Source: an uncultured Halieaceae bacterium (GTDB lineage: Bacteria; Pseudomonadota; Gammaproteobacteria; Pseudomonadales; Halieaceae). From it: a DNA stretch of 64,000 nucleotides. Position 1 is the first letter of the stretch; each line of letters begins with the position of its first letter. Positions 841 to 57,469 of this stretch are shown one piece after another. The notes under the pieces are model-generated. The model ran no database searches. It had not been told where the DNA came from and worked only from the letters and a program-made list of their open reading frames with translations. The stretch spans positions 1 through 64,000 of the forward strand of contig CAJXNM010000002.1 of assembly GCA_913057135.1 (NCBI GenBank), written 5' to 3'. Position numbers and translations under genes: made by a program.

Positions 841-2142
841 ATGCGACATTTACACTGGTTCATAAACGATCTTCGACTTAGCGATAACCCAGCGCTCGCC
901 AGCCATGCAGCTGCGGACTCACTGCTGTGTCTGTACATTCTGCCCAAACCGCGTCCCTGGTTTCAGCAGGTAGGCCTTGGGCCGCAACGGGAGCGATTTC
1001 TGCGAGAGTCCCTGCGCGAACTTCAAGCCGAGCTTCAGGCACACGGGCAAGATTTAATGGTGCTCGAGGGCTCCCCAGAACTGGTCATTCCCGATCTCGT
1101 GGCGCGATTCGGCATCACCGAGCTCAGTACAAGCGCCTGCCACGGTAGCTATGAAGCCGATCAGTTAGCCTTCCTCCGGAAAAAGCTATCGATCCCCATC
1201 GAAGTGCACAGGGGCAATACCCTGTTCAATGAGTCACAGCTACCGTTCACACTTGATGCCCTGCCAAAGGTGTTCTCACCGTTTCGGCGGAAGGTGGAAT
1301 CGATACGGGTAGAGTCGCCGCAGACCCAAGCCCTGCACTTGCCACCACCGCCGGCGGCCCAGTTCGACGCCATCCCCAAGGCATCGGTAGGACCGCACCC
1401 GGGGCTCCCTATTCCCGGGGGCCGCGCTGCGGGCTTACGTCGATTACGTCAATTTGTTTTTGATGAAGAGAGCATTCAACACTACAAAGAGACCCGTAAC
1501 TGTCTGGACGGCATGACGGGGTCATCAACCCTATCACCTTGGCTTGCCAACGGAAACTTGAGCGCACGCGAGGTGGCGCATTCGATTTTTCGTTACGAGC
1601 GTGAGCGCGTCAGTAATGAGTCCACCTACTGGTTATTTTTTGAACTGCTGTGGCGGGAGTTCTTTTACTGGAAAGCACTCGCTGACGGACGCAAGCTATT
1701 CAAGCTAGGTGGTAGCCAAGGCAATTGCCGTAGCTGCAGCTTTGAACCCCGGGCTTTTGCGCGCTGGTGCGCAGGGGATACCGACTACCCGCTGGTCAAT
1801 GCCCTAATGCGGCAACTGGTCGCCACCGGCTGGATGAGTAACCGAGGTCGTCAAATTGCTGCCAGCTGCCTTATCCACGAGTGCAACATCGATTGGCGCT
1901 ATGGTGCCGCTTTCTTTGAACGACACCTTATCGACTATGACGTGGGCAGCAACTATGGCAACTGGCAATACATCGCAGGGGCCGGGGCTGATCCTCGAGG
2001 CGGGCGACGTTTCAACATCGACAAGCAAACCGCCCAATACGATCCCGAAGGTCTTTTTACCCACAAGTGGGGTGGCTTTCGGCCGACACAGCCTAAACAC
2101 GTGGTCGACGCCGCTGACTGGCCGATCTCGGGTGACCGCTAA
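841..2142 (+). CDS. DASH-family cryptochrome / photolyase
   Basis: The 433-residue flavoprotein is of the Cry-DASH class, whose members bind FAD and an antenna cofactor and repair cyclobutane pyrimidine dimers (best in single-stranded DNA) or act in blue-light sensing. The N-terminal Rossmann-like domain starts HWFINDLRLSDNPAL. The FAD/DNA half carries WLANGNLSAREV, ELLWREFFYWKAL, the run around GWMSNRGRQIAASCL, and the DASH-type NWQYIAGAGADPRGGRRFN. The length is normal. The ATG at 841 matches the family N-terminus, although no ribosome-binding site is visible. The next gene (DUF2256) overlaps its stop by one base (TAATG), so the two are probably co-translated. A second photolyase-type gene lies convergently downstream. 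Confidence 0.93.
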   Translation: MRHLHWFINDLRLSDNPALASHAAADSLLCLYILPKPRPWFQQVGLGPQRERFLRESLRELQAELQAHGQDLMVLEGSPELVIPDLVARFGITELSTSACHGSYEADQLAFLRKKLSIPIEVHRGNTLFNESQLPFTLDALPKVFSPFRRKVESIRVESPQTQALHLPPPPAAQFDAIPKASVGPHPGLPIPGGRAAGLRRLRQFVFDEESIQHYKETRNCLDGMTGSSTLSPWLANGNLSAREVAHSIFRYERERVSNESTYWLFFELLWREFFYWKALADGRKLFKLGGSQGNCRSCSFEPRAFARWCAGDTDYPLVNALMRQLVATGWMSNRGRQIAASCLIHECNIDWRYGAAFFERHLIDYDVGSNYGNWQYIAGAGADPRGGRRFNIDKQTAQYDPEGLFTHKWGGFRPTQPKHVVDAADWPISGDR

Positions 2143-2306
2143 TGCCGAGGATGCGCAAAAAAGCCGATTTACCAACAAAAACCTGTCCGGTGTGCCAGCG
2201 CCCATTTAGCTGGCGGGCTCGCTGGAAAAATCAGTGGGACGAGATCGTTTACTGCTCCCGCAAATGCAGCTCCCAGCGTCACAAACGTACAGAGCAGGGC
2301 GTTTAG
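2142..2306 (+). CDS. DUF2256 family small zinc-ribbon-like protein
   Basis: This 54-residue protein starts in the TAATG overlap with the Cry-DASH stop. It carries CPVCQRPFSWRARW, then NQWDEIVYCSRKCSSQR: two CxxC/CxxxC-type pairs that look metal-binding, with conserved Trp and Arg between them, as in the DUF2256 family. DUF2256 genes often sit beside cryptochrome/photolyase genes, as here, but the function is unknown. The end is nine bases from the stop of the convergent photolyase gene. Confidence 0.85.
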   Translation: MPRMRKKADLPTKTCPVCQRPFSWRARWKNQWDEIVYCSRKCSSQRHKRTEQGV

Positions 2307-2315
2307 CCTAGCTCG

Positions 2316-3842
2316 CTAGTCGAGTTTGTCGAGAACCGTCTCGGCCCATCGAACGATGGCAGCACGCTCAGTGGCATCTCGCTTGCGCCAATTAGCCAAA
2401 ATCAGTCCCATACGGGCGTTGCGGCCCAAATACTCTTGATGTCGATCAATGAAGTGCCAATACAAGCTGTTGTAAGGGCAGGCATCTGCCCCGGTGGTTT
2501 TACTGGGGTTGTAGCGGCACTGGGCGCAATGGTTACCCTGCTTTTGAATGTACTTGCCGCTGGCGGCATAGGGCTTTGAGGCCATGGCGCCGTGATCACC
2601 GTGTAACGCCATACCCAAGGTGTTGGGCAGCTCAACCCACTCGTAGGCATCGACATAAACCGCCAGATACCAAGCACAAACCGCCTCGACATCAAGCCCA
2701 GCCAGGAGTGCGAAATTGCCGATAACCATCAGGCGCTGAATATGATGGGCGTAACCCAAATCAAGGGATTGGCTGAGCGCCTGCTGCAGACACCTTAAAT
2801 CCGTATCACCATCCCAGAAAAAATCCGGTAGCGGACGCTTGGCCCCAAACGTATTGCGCTGGGCATACTCGGGCATTAATAGCCAATAGACACCCCGGAC
2901 ATACTCACGCCACCCAAGTACCTGCCGAATGAACCCCTCTGCCGCAGCCAGTGAGCAATGCCCGAGGCGATAGGCTTGCTCAACCTGCTGACATACCGCC
3001 AAGGGCTCCAGCAAACCACAATTCAAATACATGGATACCAGACTGTGGAATAACCACGGGGACTCCTCGGCTAACGCATCCTGGTAACGGCCAAACTGCG
3101 CCAAACCGAATTCGCAAAACCAATCGAACTGTGCCTGAGCCTCTGTGTGGGTAACCGCCAATCGGAATTGATCGAGGTCACCCGGATTATGGGGAAACGC
3201 CGCCCGAACCTGCTCAATGACCTCACGCGTGATGTCATCGGGACTGACATCAGGCCGTCGGGGGATAGGCTCCTGATTGCGCCAACCCATACGATTCTCT
3301 GCATCGTAATTCCACTTGCCGCCACAGGGTTCACCGTCGTCGAGTAGCAGTCCGTACTGTTTACGCATATCGCGATAAAAGTACTCCATACGCAACTGTT
3401 TACGATCTTTCGCCCATGCCTTGAATTGGGCGATGGCACACAGATAACGGTCATCCTCGAGACGGTCAACGGACACACCCAACTGCTGGGGCCATGACCC
3501 AATAATTTGCTCAACACGATACTCCCCCGAAGCACAAACACGCAGCTGAGTCACCTCTGGCAGCGCCGCGAGGGCCTCTGTACAGGCTTGAGTCAGGGAG
3601 GCAACCCCCTCATCGAATTGACGGTAGATAACGGTAAATCCCTGCGCCCTCAACAGTTCGGCGAAATGGCGCATGGCGGAGAACAGCAACACCAGCTTGT
3701 GTCGGTTATGCCGCACGTACTGGGCCTCTTCCGCCACCTCCGCAAGCAACAGCGTATCGACCTGGGGTTTGGCGTTACGTAGTGCTGGATTATTAAGACT
3801 CAGTTGATCCCCAAGCACTAGCACAAGGGTTTTGCTATCCAT
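2316..3842 (-). CDS. iron-sulfur photolyase family protein (FeS-BCP / PhrB-like)
   Basis: The 508-residue protein belongs to the bacterial cryptochrome/photolyase branch that repairs (6-4) photoproducts and holds a 4Fe-4S cluster. It starts KTLVLVLGDQLSLNNPAL, has GGKWNYDAENR in the linker region and GYAHHIQRLMVIGNFALLAG in the FAD domain. Four Cys sit at residues 351, 439, 442 and 455 (DLRC, then NHCAQC and DACPYN). Their spacing of 88, 3 and 13 matches the cluster ligands of Agrobacterium PhrB as I recall them. A GTG nine bases upstream (3851) is in frame, but the ATG at 3842 has AGGGGTG just before it and is preferred. Confidence 0.9.
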   Translation of the reverse strand: MDSKTLVLVLGDQLSLNNPALRNAKPQVDTLLLAEVAEEAQYVRHNRHKLVLLFSAMRHFAELLRAQGFTVIYRQFDEGVASLTQACTEALAALPEVTQLRVCASGEYRVEQIIGSWPQQLGVSVDRLEDDRYLCAIAQFKAWAKDRKQLRMEYFYRDMRKQYGLLLDDGEPCGGKWNYDAENRMGWRNQEPIPRRPDVSPDDITREVIEQVRAAFPHNPGDLDQFRLAVTHTEAQAQFDWFCEFGLAQFGRYQDALAEESPWLFHSLVSMYLNCGLLEPLAVCQQVEQAYRLGHCSLAAAEGFIRQVLGWREYVRGVYWLLMPEYAQRNTFGAKRPLPDFFWDGDTDLRCLQQALSQSLDLGYAHHIQRLMVIGNFALLAGLDVEAVCAWYLAVYVDAYEWVELPNTLGMALHGDHGAMASKPYAASGKYIQKQGNHCAQCRYNPSKTTGADACPYNSLYWHFIDRHQEYLGRNARMGLILANWRKRDATERAAIVRWAETVLDKLD

Positions 3843-47707: not shown

Positions 47708-48715
47708 TTGAGGTCAACGGTTAACTTGCAGCAGCCCTCCTTCAAGCTCCAAATACTCGCGACTATCGGCCTGCTGGTGCTATGGACCAGCGGGGCTCGA
47801 GGGGAGCTCGATCAAAAGCAGGTGCACGCGGAGATGCTGGGTAATGCAAGAGCGGAAGTCGACTTTAGCCAAGGACGCTATGAATCTGCACGGGTGCTGT
47901 GGCAGCAACTGTCCGAGCAAGGCAATGCCCAGGCCATGGTATCCCTTGCTCGCATGTACCAGGAGGGGGCCGGTGTCTCGAGAGATCTTGAGCGCGCTTT
48001 CACATTACTAGAGAGCGCCGCAGCCCAAGGGGAGCCTCGAGCCCTTTACTACCTGAGTCTCGCGTTCGCCACGGGCAGCGGTACTCGACCATCGCAACAA
48101 AAAGCCGATGATTTTTTACGTCGCGCTGCAGTTGCAGGCCTGCCCGAGGCGCAACTCCGTTACGCTCGGCATTCACTGGAGCGAGGTGATGCGGATAGAG
48201 CCTGGCGCTGGTACACCGAAGCGATGCACCATAATGTGGCCGCTGCAGCGAGCGAGCGTCAAGGTATGATCGATAATGGCTATGTCACGACCATAAAGAC
48301 CAGTGTCGATGTTCGCCCTGTGCGCTTGCTATTAGAGGAAATGGATGGCGCCCTGAACGCCAGAGACCTCACCTTTTATTTTATGTCAGTGACACCCGAT
48401 GCGCGTATCGCCGTGCAGCTTCCCAGCGAGTCGACCTCAAGTCCAGTCAACTTAAGGGACTATGGTGAGCTCTGGCAGACCACTTTTGATACCGCCGACC
48501 GATTCAGAGCTCATCGGGTCAACACCCGCGTAGTGAGCCAACCCTACGGCTATCAAGTTGATAGTGAGATTCAGCAGTATCTCGTTGGCTCTGGCTTTGC
48601 CCAGCAGCTGACACTGTTTGAAACACTGAAGGTGGAACATACCGATCGCGGGCTGCGGGTGTCAGGTATCACCCTGATAGCCAAGTTACCGGACTCGCCG
48701 TTATTAGCGCCCTAA
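47708..48715 (+). CDS. Sel1-repeat (TPR-like) secreted or membrane-anchored protein
   Basis: The 335-residue protein has an N-terminal signal or anchor ([19 protein letters not shown]), then three or four Sel1-like helical repeats over about residues 65-185 ([40 protein letters not shown] and similar). The C-terminal 130 residues form a region I do not recognise. Sel1 repeats mediate protein contacts, so the role cannot be told. The start is a TTG, either 47708 or 47726; neither has a well-placed ribosome-binding site. It is the only plus-strand gene between rplK and rplQ, convergent with tuf and divergent from rpsJ. Confidence 0.8.
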
Positions 48716-48794: not shown

Positions 48795-50018
48795 TTACTC
48801 AATAATTTTAGCGACGACGCCGGCGCCCACGGTTCGGCCGCCTTCACGGATTGCAAAGCGCAGACCATCTTCCATCGCAATCGGCGCAATCAACGTGGCA
48901 ACAATATTGACGTTGTCACCAGGCATCACCATCTCAACACCCTCAGGTAGCTCTACCGCACCGGTTACGTCCGTCGTACGGAAGTAAAACTGCGGACGGT
49001 AGCCCTTGAAGAACGGCGTATGACGACCACCTTCATCTTTCGACAGAACGTATACCTCTGCCTCAAACTTGGTGTGCGGCGTCACTGACCCGGGAATCGC
49101 CAAAACCTGACCACGCTCAACGTCATCACGCTTGGTACCACGCAGCAATACACCGACGTTCTCACCCGCACGACCTTCGTCAAGCAGCTTGCGGAACATC
49201 TCAACACCCGTACACGTCGTCTTCTGGGTATCGCGGATACCGATGATTTCAATTTCATCGCCAACCTTGATAATGCCACGCTCAACACGGCCCGTTACCA
49301 CCGTACCACGACCTGAAATCGAGAATACGTCCTCAACAGGCATCAGGAATGGCTGATCAATCGCACGCTCTGGCTCAGGAATGTAAGAATCCAACGCCTC
49401 GATCAGGTTCTTAACCGCCGTCGTGCCCAGCTCGTTTTCATCTTCGCCGTTCAACGCCATCAGCGCTGAACCGCAAATGATGGGTGTGTCATCGCCAGGG
49501 AACTCGTAGGTATCGAGCAGCTCGCGCAGCTCCATCTCTACCAGCTCTTTCATCTCTTCGAACTCTTCAGTATCAACACCGCCGCAATCTTCTGCCAACA
49601 AGTCAGCCTTGTTCAGGAAAACCACGATGTACGGTACACCTACCTGACGCGACAGCAGGATGTGCTCACGGGTCTGGGGCATAGGACCATCGGTGGCACC
49701 ACACACCAAAATAGCGCCGTCCATCTGGGCCGCACCCGTAATCATGTTCTTAACGTAGTCCGCGTGTCCGGGGCAGTCTACGTGCGCGTAGTGACGATCG
49801 TTCGACTCGTACTCAACGTGCGACGTCGCAATCGTGATACCACGCTCGCGCTCTTCCGGGGCGTTATCGATACCGTCAAACGCTACCGCCGTACCACCAA
49901 ATACTTCTGCAGCCACTCGCGTCAACGCCGCTGTCAGCGTCGTCTTACCGTGGTCTACGTGCCCAATCGTGCCCACGTTGACGTGGGGCTTCGAACGCTC
50001 AAATGATTCCTTCGACAC
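48795..50018 (-). CDS. tuf: elongation factor Tu
   Basis: The 407-residue EF-Tu brings aminoacyl-tRNA to the A site. G motifs [25 protein letters not shown] and NKAD are present, and domains 2 and 3 are intact ([13 protein letters not shown], the end [17 protein letters not shown]). It is about 13 residues longer than E. coli EF-Tu: roughly ten extra follow NKAD ([18 protein letters not shown]) and three lie near [13 protein letters not shown]. The same form occurs, as I recall, in Cellvibrionales. It is the last gene of the str unit. No second tuf copy is in the window. Confidence 0.98.
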
Positions 50019-52771: not shown

Positions 52772-53143
52772 TTACTTGGGTCGTTTGGCGCCGTATTTGG
52801 AGCGGCCCTGACGACGGTTGGCAACACCCGACGTATCGAGACTACCGCGCACGGTGTGGTAGCGAACACCGGGCAAATCTTTTACACGACCACCGCGGAT
52901 CAACACTACGCTGTGCTCTTGCAGGTTGTGGCCTTCACCACCAATGTAAGAGGAGACTTCGTAGCCATTGGTCAAACGTACACGACATACCTTGCGGAGT
53001 GCCGAGTTAGGCTTTTTCGGGGTGGTGGTATACACGCGGGTGCAAACACCGCGACGCTGGGGACAAGCTTGCAGCGCGGGTACGCCACTCTTGATCACCT
53101 TGCGCTTGCGCGGCTTACGCACAAGCTGGTTAATGGTTGCCAT
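52772..53143 (-). CDS. rpsL: 30S ribosomal protein S12
   Basis: The 123-residue S12 has [40 protein letters not shown] with the usual Lys of the decoding loop, and [18 protein letters not shown]. The residues commonly changed in streptomycin resistance look wild-type. It is the first gene of the str unit. Confidence 0.98.
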
Positions 53144-53180
53144 TCAAATGCTCCGAATTGTCTGGGGAGTGACCCCAAAT

Positions 53181-53209
53181 AAAAGAGCGCGCATTCTATA
53201 GATGCGCGC
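53181..53209 (-). terminator. probable rpoBC terminator overlapping the rpsL promoter
   Basis: On the transcript GCGCGCAT (53209-53202), loop CTATAGA, ATGCGCGC (53194-53187), then TCTTTTATTT. It lies about 30 nt after the rpoC stop. The right arm contains part of the rpsL -10 box. Confidence 0.6.
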
Positions 53210-53221
53210 ACCCCTAGTCAA
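53193..53221 (-). promoter_or_regulatory. sigma70-type promoter of the str operon (rpsL)
   Basis: TTGACT, 17 bases, TAGAAT, then GCGCGCTCTTTT. Transcription should start near 53186, after the hairpin arm, so the new RNA would not carry the terminator stem. Confidence 0.8.
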
Positions 53222-53239
53222 CGACTTAGCGACTGAACG

Positions 53240-56200
53240 CTATTCGCTCTCGGCTTCCGCCTTTTCCATTTCAACCGCGAAGCTTTCTTGGAACTCTTCG
53301 TCGGACATGGTCAGAGACAGCGCTCCGTCATCGGCACGTTTACGACGCCGCTCATCGTGGTAGGCCAGACCCGTACCCGCAGGAATCAGGCGACCCACAA
53401 TCACGTTTTCTTTGAGACCGCGCAAGTAATCACGCTTACCGGTCACCGCAGCTTCAGTAAGTACACGCGTGGTCTCTTGGAACGAGGCAGCAGAGATGAA
53501 GCTTTCCGTCGCAAGAGAGGCTTTGGTAATCCCCAGCAACTCCCGCTCCGCTGTCGGCGACATCAGGTTCTGGGCCTCGAGTCGATCACACTCCTCAAGG
53601 AATGCGGTGTACTCGACCTGCTCTCCCTTGATAAAGGTCGATTCGCCAGCACCAGTAATAACCACTTTACGCAACATCTGCCGTACGATGATTTCGATGT
53701 GCTTATCGTTGATCTTCACACCCTGGAGTCGATAAACCTCTTGGATCTCGTTAACGATGTACTTCGCCAACTCGGCGATGCCCTTCAACCGTAGGATATC
53801 GTGGGGACTGAGCGGACCTTCGGATACGATTTCGCCCTTCTCGACCTGTTCGCCCTCAAATACCGACAGCTGACGCCACTTAGGAATGAGTTCCTCGTAG
53901 TGATCTGAGCCATCGGGCAGGGTTGAACCATCGGTCGGAGTGATGATCAGACGACGCTTGCCTTTGGTCTCTTTACCAAAGCTCACGGTACCTGAGATTT
54001 CCGCCAAGATAGCGGGCTCTTTAGGCTTGCGCGCTTCGAACAGGTCGGCAACCCGTGGCAAACCACCGGTAATATCGCGCGTCTTAGAACCCTCTTGAGG
54101 AATGCGGGCAATGATATCGCCCACTTCCACGCGGGCACCATCTTCAAGGTTGACCGTTGCCATCGGCGGCAAGAAGTAGTGGGCAGGGACGTTGGTACCC
54201 GCCAAGGTCAGTTCTTCACCGTTCTCATCGATGAGGGTAACCGCAGGCCGCATATCCTTACCCGCAGTAGGCCGCTCACCGCTATCCATCACCGAAATGC
54301 TCGACAGACCTGTAAACTCGTCGGTCTGGCGCTTGATGGTAACGCCCTCTTCCATACCACTGAACTTCACGATACCCGCCACCTCGGTAATGATGGGGTG
54401 GGTGTGTGGGTCCCAGTTGGCGACCACATCGCCGGCGGCACAGGCGTCTTCATCGTGCACTTTAATGACCGCGCCGTAGGGCACCTTGTAACGCTCACGC
54501 TCTCGGCCCACTTTATCAAGCACCGACAACTCACCAGAGCGCGATACCGCAACTAGCGAGCCGTCGAGACGATCGACGGTTTTAATGTTGTGCAGCTTAA
54601 TGACACCGTCGGAGTTAACCTGAATATTGTCTTTCGCTGCCTGACCCGATGCCGCACCACCAATGTGGAAGGTGCGCATGGTGAGCTGAGTGCCCGGCTC
54701 ACCAATGGACTGTGCAGCCACAACACCAATGGCTTCACCGAGGTTAACCTGATGTCCGCGGCCAAGGTCGCGGCCATAGCATGCCGAGCAGATACCGTGG
54801 CGGGTTTTACAGGTAATCGGCGAGCGAACTTCCACTTCATCAATACCCATTTCTTCAAGGCGGTTAGTCCACACCTCGTCAATCATGGTATTGGCTTCAA
54901 GAATCAGCTCGTCGGTGCCTGGCTTGAACAAATCTTTTGCTAGTACCCGGCCCAATACACGATCGGCCAGCGACTCGATGATGTCACCACCGTCAATAAC
55001 CGGCGTCATCAACAGACCTTCATCGGTGCCACAGTCTTGCTCAGTGACCACAACGTCTTGAGCCACATCGACAAGCCGGCGAGTGAGGTAACCCGAGTTA
55101 GCGGTTTTCAATGCGGTATCCGCAAGACCCTTACGAGCACCGTGGGTGGAAATGAAGTACTGCAGTACGTTCAAACCCTCACGGAAGTTGGCCACGATAG
55201 GAGTTTCGATAATGGAGCCATCGGGCTTGGCCATCAAACCACGCATACCTGCGAGCTGACGGATCTGCGCCGGGGAACCACGAGCACCGGAATCGGCGTA
55301 CATATAAACCGAGTTGAAAGAACTCTGCTCTTCCTCCTCACCATCGCGGTTGATGACCGTTTCCTTCGACAGGCTTGCCATCATCGACTTGGCCACTTGC
55401 TCGTTGGTGCGTGACCAAATGTCGATCACTTTGTTGTACTTCTCACCCTGGGTTACCAAACCCGCAGCATATTGCTCTTCGATTTCCTTGACTTCAGCGT
55501 AAGCGCGATCGACGAGCTGCGCTTTCTCGTCCGGAATCTCGAAATCATTAACACCAATCGAAGAACCCGACTTAGTTGAGTACTCATAACCGGTGTACAT
55601 GAGCTGGTCAGCAAAGACAACCGTCGCTTTCAAGCCAACCACGCGATAGCACTGGTTAATGACTTGAGAAATGGCTTTCTTCACCATAGGACGGTTGATC
55701 AAATCGAAAGACAAGCCGGTCGGGACGATGCCCCACAGCAGGGTTCGGCCTACCGTGGTATCGACAATACGCGTGCGCGCAACCCCTTCAGAATCGTAAT
55801 CGGCGACGGTCTCTTCGATGCGCACTTTGATACGCGCCTGCAAATGCACCTGACCGGCGGCATAAGCCCGCTGTACCTCGGTTGCATCAGCGAACACCAT
55901 ACCCTCACCTTGTACATTGACCCGCTCGCGGGTCATGAAATACAAGCCAAGCACCACATCCTGCGAGGGCACAATAATGGGGTCGCCTGACGCAGGAGAG
56001 AGAATGTTGTTGGTTGACATCATCAGCGCACGGGCTTCTAGCTGCGCTTCAAGGGTCAGAGGTACGTGTACTGCCATCTGGTCGCCGTCAAAGTCGGCGT
56101 TGTAGGCGGCACAAACCAGTGGGTGCAATTGAATGGCTTTACCTTCAATAAGCACAGGTTCAAAGGCTTGAATACCCAAACGGTGCAGCGTAGGCGCACG

Positions 56201-57469
56201 GTTGAGCATCACGGGGTGCTCGCGAATCACCTCAGCCAAGATGTCCCATACTTCAGGCGGCTCACGCTCTACCATTTTCTTGGCGGCTTTAATGGTGCTC
56301 GCCAAACCGCGGTGCTCAAGCTTGCCAAAGATGAATGGCTTGAACAGCTCGAGGGCCATTTTCTTGGGCAAACCACACTGATGCAGACGTAAGGTAGGAC
56401 CCGTTACGATCACCGAACGACCCGAGTAATCAACACGCTTACCCAGTAGGTTTTGACGGAAGCGCCCTTGCTTACCCTTGATCATGTCAGCGAGGGACTT
56501 CAGGGGCCGCTTATTCGAACCGGTGATTGCGCGCCCGCGGCGACCGTTGTCGAGCAGGGCGTCGACGGATTCCTGCAACATGCGCTTCTCGTTGCGGACA
56601 ATAATGTCGGGCGCATTCAAATCGAGCAGACGCTTCAGACGGTTGTTGCGGTTAATGACCCGTCGATACAGATCGTTAAGATCGGAGGTCGCAAAACGAC
56701 CGCCATCGAGGGGTACCAATGGACGCAAATCGGGTGGCAGCACTGGCAAAGCATTCAATACCATCCACTCCGGCTTGTTACCCGAGTTGGCAAAGGCCTC
56801 AAGCAGCTTCAGACGCTTGGACAGCTTCTTGATCTTGGTCTCTGAATTGGTCGCCGGAATTTCCTCGCGAAGGCGCTCGACTTCGGAAGCGATGTCGATT
56901 TGCATCATCAGGGCCTGAATGGCTTCAGCACCCATCTTCGCGGTGAACTCGTCACCGAACTCCTCCATGGCCTCGAAGTACTGCTCGTCATTCAGCAATT
57001 GACCTTGGTCGAGGGTAGAAAGCCCGGGGTCCGTCACCACGTAGGATTCGAAGTAGAGAATACGTTCGATATCGCGCAGGGTCATGTCGAGCAGCAAACC
57101 AATACGCGATGGCAGGGATTTTAAGAACCAGATGTGAGCAACAGGGCTCGCCAGTTCGATGTGGCCCATACGCTCACGGCGCACCTTGGCCAAGGCCACC
57201 TCAACGCCACACTTCTCACAAATAACGCCCCTGTGCTTGAGGCGCTTGTACTTACCGCACAAGCACTCATAGTCTTTCACCGGGCCGAAAATCTTGGCAC
57301 AGAACAAGCCGTCGCGCTCGGGCTTGAAGGTCCGGTAGTTGATGGTCTCTGGCTTTTTAACTTCGCCGTAAGACCAAGACCGGATCATCTCTGGGGAGGC
57401 AAGACCGATGCGAATGGCATCGAAATCTTCATTTTTTTCCCTGCTCAGCAGGTTTAACAGATCTTTCAT
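53240..57469 (-). CDS. rpoC: RNA polymerase beta' subunit
   Basis: The 1409-residue catalytic subunit has the N-terminal zinc module ([20 protein letters not shown]), the catalytic [15 protein letters not shown] with three Asp (about residue 460), the second zinc site ([20 protein letters not shown]) and the trigger-loop region [19 protein letters not shown]. The length is near that of E. coli (1407). It follows rpoB after 12 nt. Confidence 0.99.

Follow-up and report, generated by a model that had tools for sequence, protein, structure and literature searches.

A terminator-like hairpin and the predicted rpsL promoter share bases at the rpoC-rpsL junction of a Halieaceae bacterium

Can the bases that would stop transcripts arriving from rpoBC also be those that start the str operon? 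This question is raised by the junction between rpoC and rpsL in the window, a stretch of 64,000 nucleotides of DNA from an uncultured Halieaceae bacterium (contig CAJXNM010000002.1, positions 1 to 64,000). The minus strand of the window carries rpoB, rpoC, rpsL, rpsG, fusA and tuf (ORF list; the gene names are our reading of the ORF translations). A first-pass annotation of this DNA had proposed that an 8-bp hairpin followed by a T-rich tract just after rpoC, and the -10 box of a near-consensus rpsL promoter, occupy the same bases.

Anatomy of the junction and its chance expectation

The features of the junction are as follows.

53240-57469, minus strand: rpoC, an ORF of 1409 aa; its transcript is the upstream one to be stopped
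52772-53143, minus strand: rpsL, an ORF of 123 aa with which the str operon opens
53144-53239, minus strand: rpoC-rpsL gap, 96 nt
53221-53216, minus strand: -35 box TTGACT (motif scan)
53198-53193, minus strand: -10 box TAGAAT (motif scan); its final two bases belong to the right arm of the hairpin, the other four to the loop
53202-53209, minus strand: left arm of the hairpin, GCGCGCAT, inside the 17-nt spacer (sequence, scan and fold)
between the arms of the 53209-53187 hairpin, minus strand: loop CTATAGA (scan)
53187-53194, minus strand: right arm of the hairpin, ATGCGCGC; 53187-53192 doubles as the GC-rich discriminator GCGCGC
53177-53186, minus strand: T-rich tract TCTTTTATTT, putative terminator U-run and predicted start region of the rpsL mRNA
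53164-53176, minus strand: leader hairpin GGGG-TCACT-CCCC of the rpsL mRNA (fold), with no T-run behind it
53151-53154, minus strand: GGAG, probable ribosome-binding site of rpsL (read from the sequence)

The predicted rpsL promoter is of the sigma70 type and, as the first-pass annotation held, near consensus: 10 of 12 positions match in the motif scan, and the 17-nt spacer falls within the 16-18 nt spacing of such boxes, which is kept in relatives. A GC-rich stretch between the -10 box and the start, a stringent-type feature, is present as GCGCGC. The hairpin at 53209-53187 has eight pairs (six G-C and two A-T) followed by TCTTTTATTT, so that a GC-rich hairpin stands directly before a U-run at 53209-53177, as in an intrinsic (Rho-independent) terminator. 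The scanner lists exactly these bases and no second terminator-like site for the minus strand of the 96-nt gap, and the hairpin is present in the minimum-energy fold of that gap. The first-pass observation is confirmed: the -10 box lies where it had been placed, in the loop and right arm, and in silico (sequence and fold) a candidate terminator of the upstream operon and the predicted promoter of the downstream one share bases. From the position of the -10 box, the rpsL mRNA would start at approximately 53186-53184, the seventh to ninth base after the box. An attenuator or riboswitch of rpsL was considered and rejected: the hairpin precedes the predicted start and lies outside the leader. There were no Rfam matches in 52800-53500 up to an E value of 1. 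By eye, several sister species carry differing hairpin-like repeats at about the position of the rpsL leader hairpin.

When the gap was dinucleotide-shuffled 20,000 times, such a promoter arose 49 times, such a terminator 415 times and both together twice; the overlap as observed arose in none (0/20,000). Taken by itself, folding energy argues less strongly than this shuffle test: the whole gap folds with a z of -2.2 (3 of 200 shuffles equally good) and the 52-nt promoter segment with a z of -1.5 (15 of 200). Because GCGCGC is self-complementary and two such runs pair automatically, the arms of this genome alone are weak proof. Elsewhere in the genome, 67 sites match TANAATGCGCGC with at most one mismatch (35 for a reversed control pattern), and among the 29 of these 67 that were read, a good -35 box together with a strong enclosing hairpin occurs only at rpoC-rpsL. 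A terminator score for the hairpin depends on how the formula sums the tail: against a cut-off of 0 the hairpin scores -19 if only T positions are summed and +1.6 if all are. Applied per gap at the same cut-off to 105 genomes of the order, the score passed four overlapping and three upstream sites; it let through few sites when the cut-off was strict, and was not relied upon.

Two other features of the neighbourhood were seen. A 335-aa ORF at 47708-48715 on the plus strand, resembling a Sel1-repeat protein by eye, separates tuf from the S10 operon and interrupts the str-S10 junction. There are two tuf genes, at 48795-50018 of the window and at 1854-3077 of locus L317, both on the minus strand; their 407-aa translations look identical by eye.

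Pairing around the -10 box across the order

An rpsL match was found in 130 of 145 genomes of the order, and 130 upstream regions from 129 genomes were analysed (G108, whose match starts at a contig end, was left out, and G126 contributes two places). Using tblastn with the last 250 aa of the window's own RpoC as the query, rpoC was recognised directly upstream of rpsL in 106 of the 130 regions. The promoter scores above the cut-off in 105 of these 106, which form the rpoC-adjacent test set (G096, with a weak promoter, was dropped). The comparison set holds 22 of the 24 regions without rpoC (dropped: G120, with 40 nt upstream, and G050, with a weak promoter); here "without rpoC" means no match within the upstream stretch of up to 700 nt, and for G137, with only 198 nt, adjacency is uncertain. 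By DNA similarity, families f21, f20 and f37 include relatives of Pseudomonas, Marinobacter and Halomonas, respectively.

The letters of the arms around the -10 box vary by family and yet pair: examples are GGGCGCG/CGCGCCC, TGTGGATG/CATCCACA, GCGGAGGGCG/CGCCCTCCGC and GGGTGGCGC/GCGCCACCC. The 16 nt before the -10 box were paired with the 12 nt after it, taking one genome per family and permuting the left arms among families. In the rpoC-adjacent set (105 genomes, 39 families) the mean pairing energy is -11.6 kcal/mol, against -8.7 kcal/mol after exchange between families (z -7.7; 0 of 5,000 permutations as good). The result is 0/5,000 both where the distance from the rpoC stop to the -10 box is at most 60 nt (n=42) and where it lies farther away (n=63). 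Among the 22 regions without rpoC the signal is weak (105 of 5,000 permutations). The paired changes in relatives that the first-pass annotation had proposed to look for, keeping both hairpin and -10 box, are therefore there, with the arms complementary across 39 families.

A strong duplex (-10 kcal/mol or below) is formed in 63 of the 105 rpoC-adjacent genomes but in only 3 of the 22 regions with no rpoC match upstream (Fisher p 6e-5, with kinship ignored), and 28 of the 39 rpoC-adjacent families contain at least one genome with such a duplex. With thresholds of 5 pairs and -5 kcal/mol for an enclosing helix, the same contrast is seen, 76/105 against 8/22. In an earlier form of the test, which used whole minimum-energy folds, the family-level Wilcoxon p was 0.004 and 33 of 105 genomes fell in the best 5%. 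The mean pairing profile of the rpoC-adjacent families has three peaks (approximately 40 nt before the -10 box, on the box itself, and approximately 33 nt after its start, where the window has its leader hairpin) separated by troughs near the -35 box and at the T-rich tract; on the -10 box it reaches 8.3 enclosing pairs, compared with about 3.5 in the flanking troughs. Without rpoC the profile is much flatter, with 5.7 on the -10 box and troughs of 4.5 and 3.4.

The -10 hairpin is common in the order, not universal: strong pairing around the -10 box is missing from 42 of the 105 rpoC-adjacent genomes, and families f35, f29, f42 and f37 have little or no pairing there. As some of these genomes have other hairpins, at the -35 box or in the leader, the order uses several solutions. 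Among 80 named loci, rpsL lies within 450 nt of rpoC in 40 and farther away in 4, and was not found by pattern in the stretch examined in 36. By eye, as examples and not as a count, the -10 hairpin is seen in Pseudomonas (L061, L068), Marinobacter (L062, L114), Amphritea (L072, with a 12-pair stem) and a gammaproteobacterium (L077), and it is weak or absent in Vreelandella (L076), Chromohalobacter (L099), Colwellia (L137) and Pseudoalteromonas (L132).

Three further observations concern the surroundings of the promoter. A second hairpin approximately 40 nt before the -10 box frequently extends up to the -35 box or contains it (for example in L153, L156, L192 and L008), and the pairing peak at this distance is clear only where rpoC is adjacent. 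Downstream of the promoter, the rpsL leaders of G015, G020, G022, G128, G100 and G034 (loci L203, L204, L174, L178, L179 and L180) contain strong terminator-like hairpins with U-runs; found in several families, these could serve attenuation of the str operon itself. Lastly, the likely start region (positions 7-9 after the -10 box; 53186-53184 in the window) is almost purely pyrimidine in the 105 rpoC-adjacent genomes, with C at position 8 in 99 of them. This is unusual, as purines are usually preferred as the first transcribed base.

Simple and nested forms within the family and genus

Within the family, rpsL was matched in 81 of 100 genomes, 79 of which were used (G204, a weak match, and G229, a partial one, were left out), and rpoC adjoins rpsL in 39 of the 79. 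The simple form of the hairpin, as in the window, pairs at -10 kcal/mol or below in 18 of the 39 rpoC-adjacent genomes versus 3 of the 40 others; if partners located up to 15 nt upstream of the -35 box are counted as well, the numbers become 30/39 versus 13/40. These family counts are weighted to the window's own genus, which supplies 16 of the 39.

In the genus set (18 genomes searched; 16 used, as two had no rpsL hit) rpoC is adjacent to rpsL in every genome, and in all 16 the -10 box is held in a hairpin: four genomes have the simple form and twelve a nested one. The simple form is found in the window's own genome, G200, G154 and G220, where 15, 1, 81 and 16 of 200 shuffles, respectively, fold as well as the 52-nt segment; only G200 clearly beats its shuffles. 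In the nested form the discriminator pairs with the bases just before the -35 box (outer helix), the -35 box itself (its GAC and the bases that follow) pairs with the spacer's 3' end (inner helix), and the -10 box lies mostly in an internal loop. For each of these twelve folds, only 0-2 of 200 shuffles are equally good.

The two nested helices differ in what they can tell. In the inner helix 70 of 72 cells are paired, with changes on both sides at three of six pairs; slid registers give only 19-42 of 72, and in the four simple-form genomes just 11 of 24 cells are paired at these positions. Every cell of the outer helix is paired (36/36 and 42/42), but this helix carries less weight because it varies little and, being GCGC-like, still pairs fairly well when slid by two (up to 33/42). 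In a tree built from the final 400 nt of rpoC, nested-form genomes fall into three groups and simple-form genomes into two, on an unresolved backbone that gives no direction for the change. In the sister genus g2 the hairpin has just 5 pairs. Comparison with relatives thus gave, beyond paired changes, two things: an association with rpoC (63/105 against 3/22 for strong pairing) and, in sister species, a promoter that is rewired and yet paired.

Proposed arrangement, alternatives and related systems

The T-run requires a different reading from the hairpin. In the family there are 5.8 T per 10 bases after the discriminator with rpoC adjacent and 5.7 without; in the order the values are 4.5 with a strong hairpin, 3.8 without one and 4.5 where no rpoC precedes. 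As T content in the family is equal with and without rpoC, the T-run alone is no evidence for a terminator and was dropped as such; it belongs to the early transcribed region of the promoter and is borrowed. The first-pass interpretation is supported by the pairing kept in relatives, with one rewording: the T-run is not terminator-specific. Since the discriminator and early transcribed bases are present regardless, it is the complementary arm that tends to come and go with rpoC.

We suggest, at a probability of approximately 0.78, the following arrangement. The rpsL promoter would be of the ribosomal-protein type, with near-consensus -35 and -10 boxes, a GC-rich discriminator, and first transcribed bases that are rich in pyrimidines and T. 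Such a promoter would supply the 3' half of a terminator ready made, the discriminator serving as the 3' arm and the early transcribed region as the U-run, and a complementary left arm in the spacer would complete the hairpin. A polymerase arriving from rpoC would produce RNA holding both arms, so that the hairpin could form and the U-run release the RNA; a polymerase starting at the rpsL promoter would produce RNA whose first base lies just past the 3' arm, so that no hairpin could form and this RNA would escape. One set of bases would in this way stop one class of transcripts and start another. Selection would keep the pairing and not a fixed sequence, as suggested by arms that change together across families and by a partner arm upstream of the -35 box in 12 of the 16 genus genomes. 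The anatomy, the chance level, the arm-to-arm covariation and the association with rpoC adjacency were each observed directly. Termination itself, the start site and the insulation of the two operons from each other are predicted from these. While at the terminator, a polymerase would presumably cover the -10 box and start region and exclude initiation meanwhile.

Could the hairpin instead be a processing element, protecting the 3' end of read-through RNA, or a pause site, with rpoC and str partly co-transcribed? Many members of the order have hairpins here without a good U-run, and extra hairpins occur upstream of the -35 box and in the rpsL leader, as this would lead one to expect. However, every one of the 16 genus genomes has five or more T among the ten bases that follow the discriminator, and the gap in the window has no other listed terminator-like site; we consider such a role unlikely. 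Somewhat less probable still is a functional promoter without a functional hairpin: the discriminator would be GC-rich for the sake of control by growth rate or ppGpp, and the spacer, likewise GC-rich, would pair with it by composition. GC-rich discriminators are typical of ppGpp-inhibited promoters according to a passage in PMC9304144, the discriminator and T-rich start are kept with and without rpoC adjacent, GCGCGC pairs with itself, and 15 of 200 shuffles of the window's 52-nt segment fold as well. Composition, however, is retained when left arms are exchanged between families and pairing nonetheless falls (0/5,000), strong pairing is rarer without rpoC upstream, and the nested form of sister species has changes on both sides of its pairs. 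A DNA operator, with a dimeric regulator on half sites flanking the -10 box, would fit the perfect 8-bp inverted repeat around that box but was rejected as highly improbable, because a fixed protein site would keep letters and not pairing, whereas the arm sequences vary between families with complementarity kept and the repeat partner lies beyond the -35 box in 12 of 16 genus genomes.

A promoter and terminator sharing bases, as preferred here, has precedents at other junctions. Passages of PMC7055797 (citing Brandis, Cao and Hughes 2019) describe a terminator-promoter overlap with a fitness effect at Salmonella tufB-secE, and give such shared bases as a proposed reason for the conservation of operon order. 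As at rpoC-rpsL, the terminator of one operon and the promoter of the next share bases there; at tufB-secE, however, the overlap is said to matter for expression and fitness, while the present junction is known from its sequence. The likeness is drawn from a summary passage without anatomy, so that the -10 box in the loop, the covariation and the nested form lie beyond the comparison. A closer match in anatomy is the nusG-rplK junction of E. coli K-12 (NC_000913.3, L316), where the -10 box TACAAT starts in the loop and the discriminator lies in the 3' arm, followed by TTGTTTTT; it differs in being another junction and in its 14-pair stem. The 111-nt stretch there folds with a z of -5.75, and its -35 box is TTGCAC at 17 nt by our reading (the scanner lists TGCACA at 16 nt, 9/12). 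In the nusG-rplK gap of the window's own genome the scanner lists neither a terminator nor a sigma70-like promoter.

The neighbourhood of rpoBC and str is itself old: passages of PMC8046335 count it among a small number of operon orders that have persisted for very long, reconstruct the cluster and describe gene insertions between rpoBC and str. The full-text literature searched, with subscription literature mostly outside its scope, yielded by title or abstract no terminator-promoter overlap at rpoC-rpsL, and the passages found in PMC8765398 and PMC3460626 do not mention this junction. The present case adds another junction with such an overlap, for which anatomy, covariation and nested form have been worked out.

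The overlap might also act as a reloading device, in which the polymerase that releases the rpoBC RNA sits on the rpsL -10 box and start and restarts once sigma rebinds; the position of the hairpin, and not its sequence, would then be what is kept through the rewired pairings. We regard this as a doubtful extension. In vitro, polymerase can restart at nearby promoters after releasing RNA at an intrinsic terminator, in 37% of terminations and in 55% with added sigma70 (passages of PMC6978380). That system uses a separate downstream promoter, whereas here terminator and promoter coincide, as read from sequence. If reloading were true, the synthesis of RNA polymerase and of ribosomal proteins would be coupled by geometry.

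At this one junction the sharing of bases shows up as covariation in much of the order, the regions without rpoC upstream providing a natural control and rewiring being seen inside a single genus. The rule suggested is a simple one: a promoter with a GC-rich discriminator and a T-rich start would need only a complementary upstream arm to terminate incoming transcripts.
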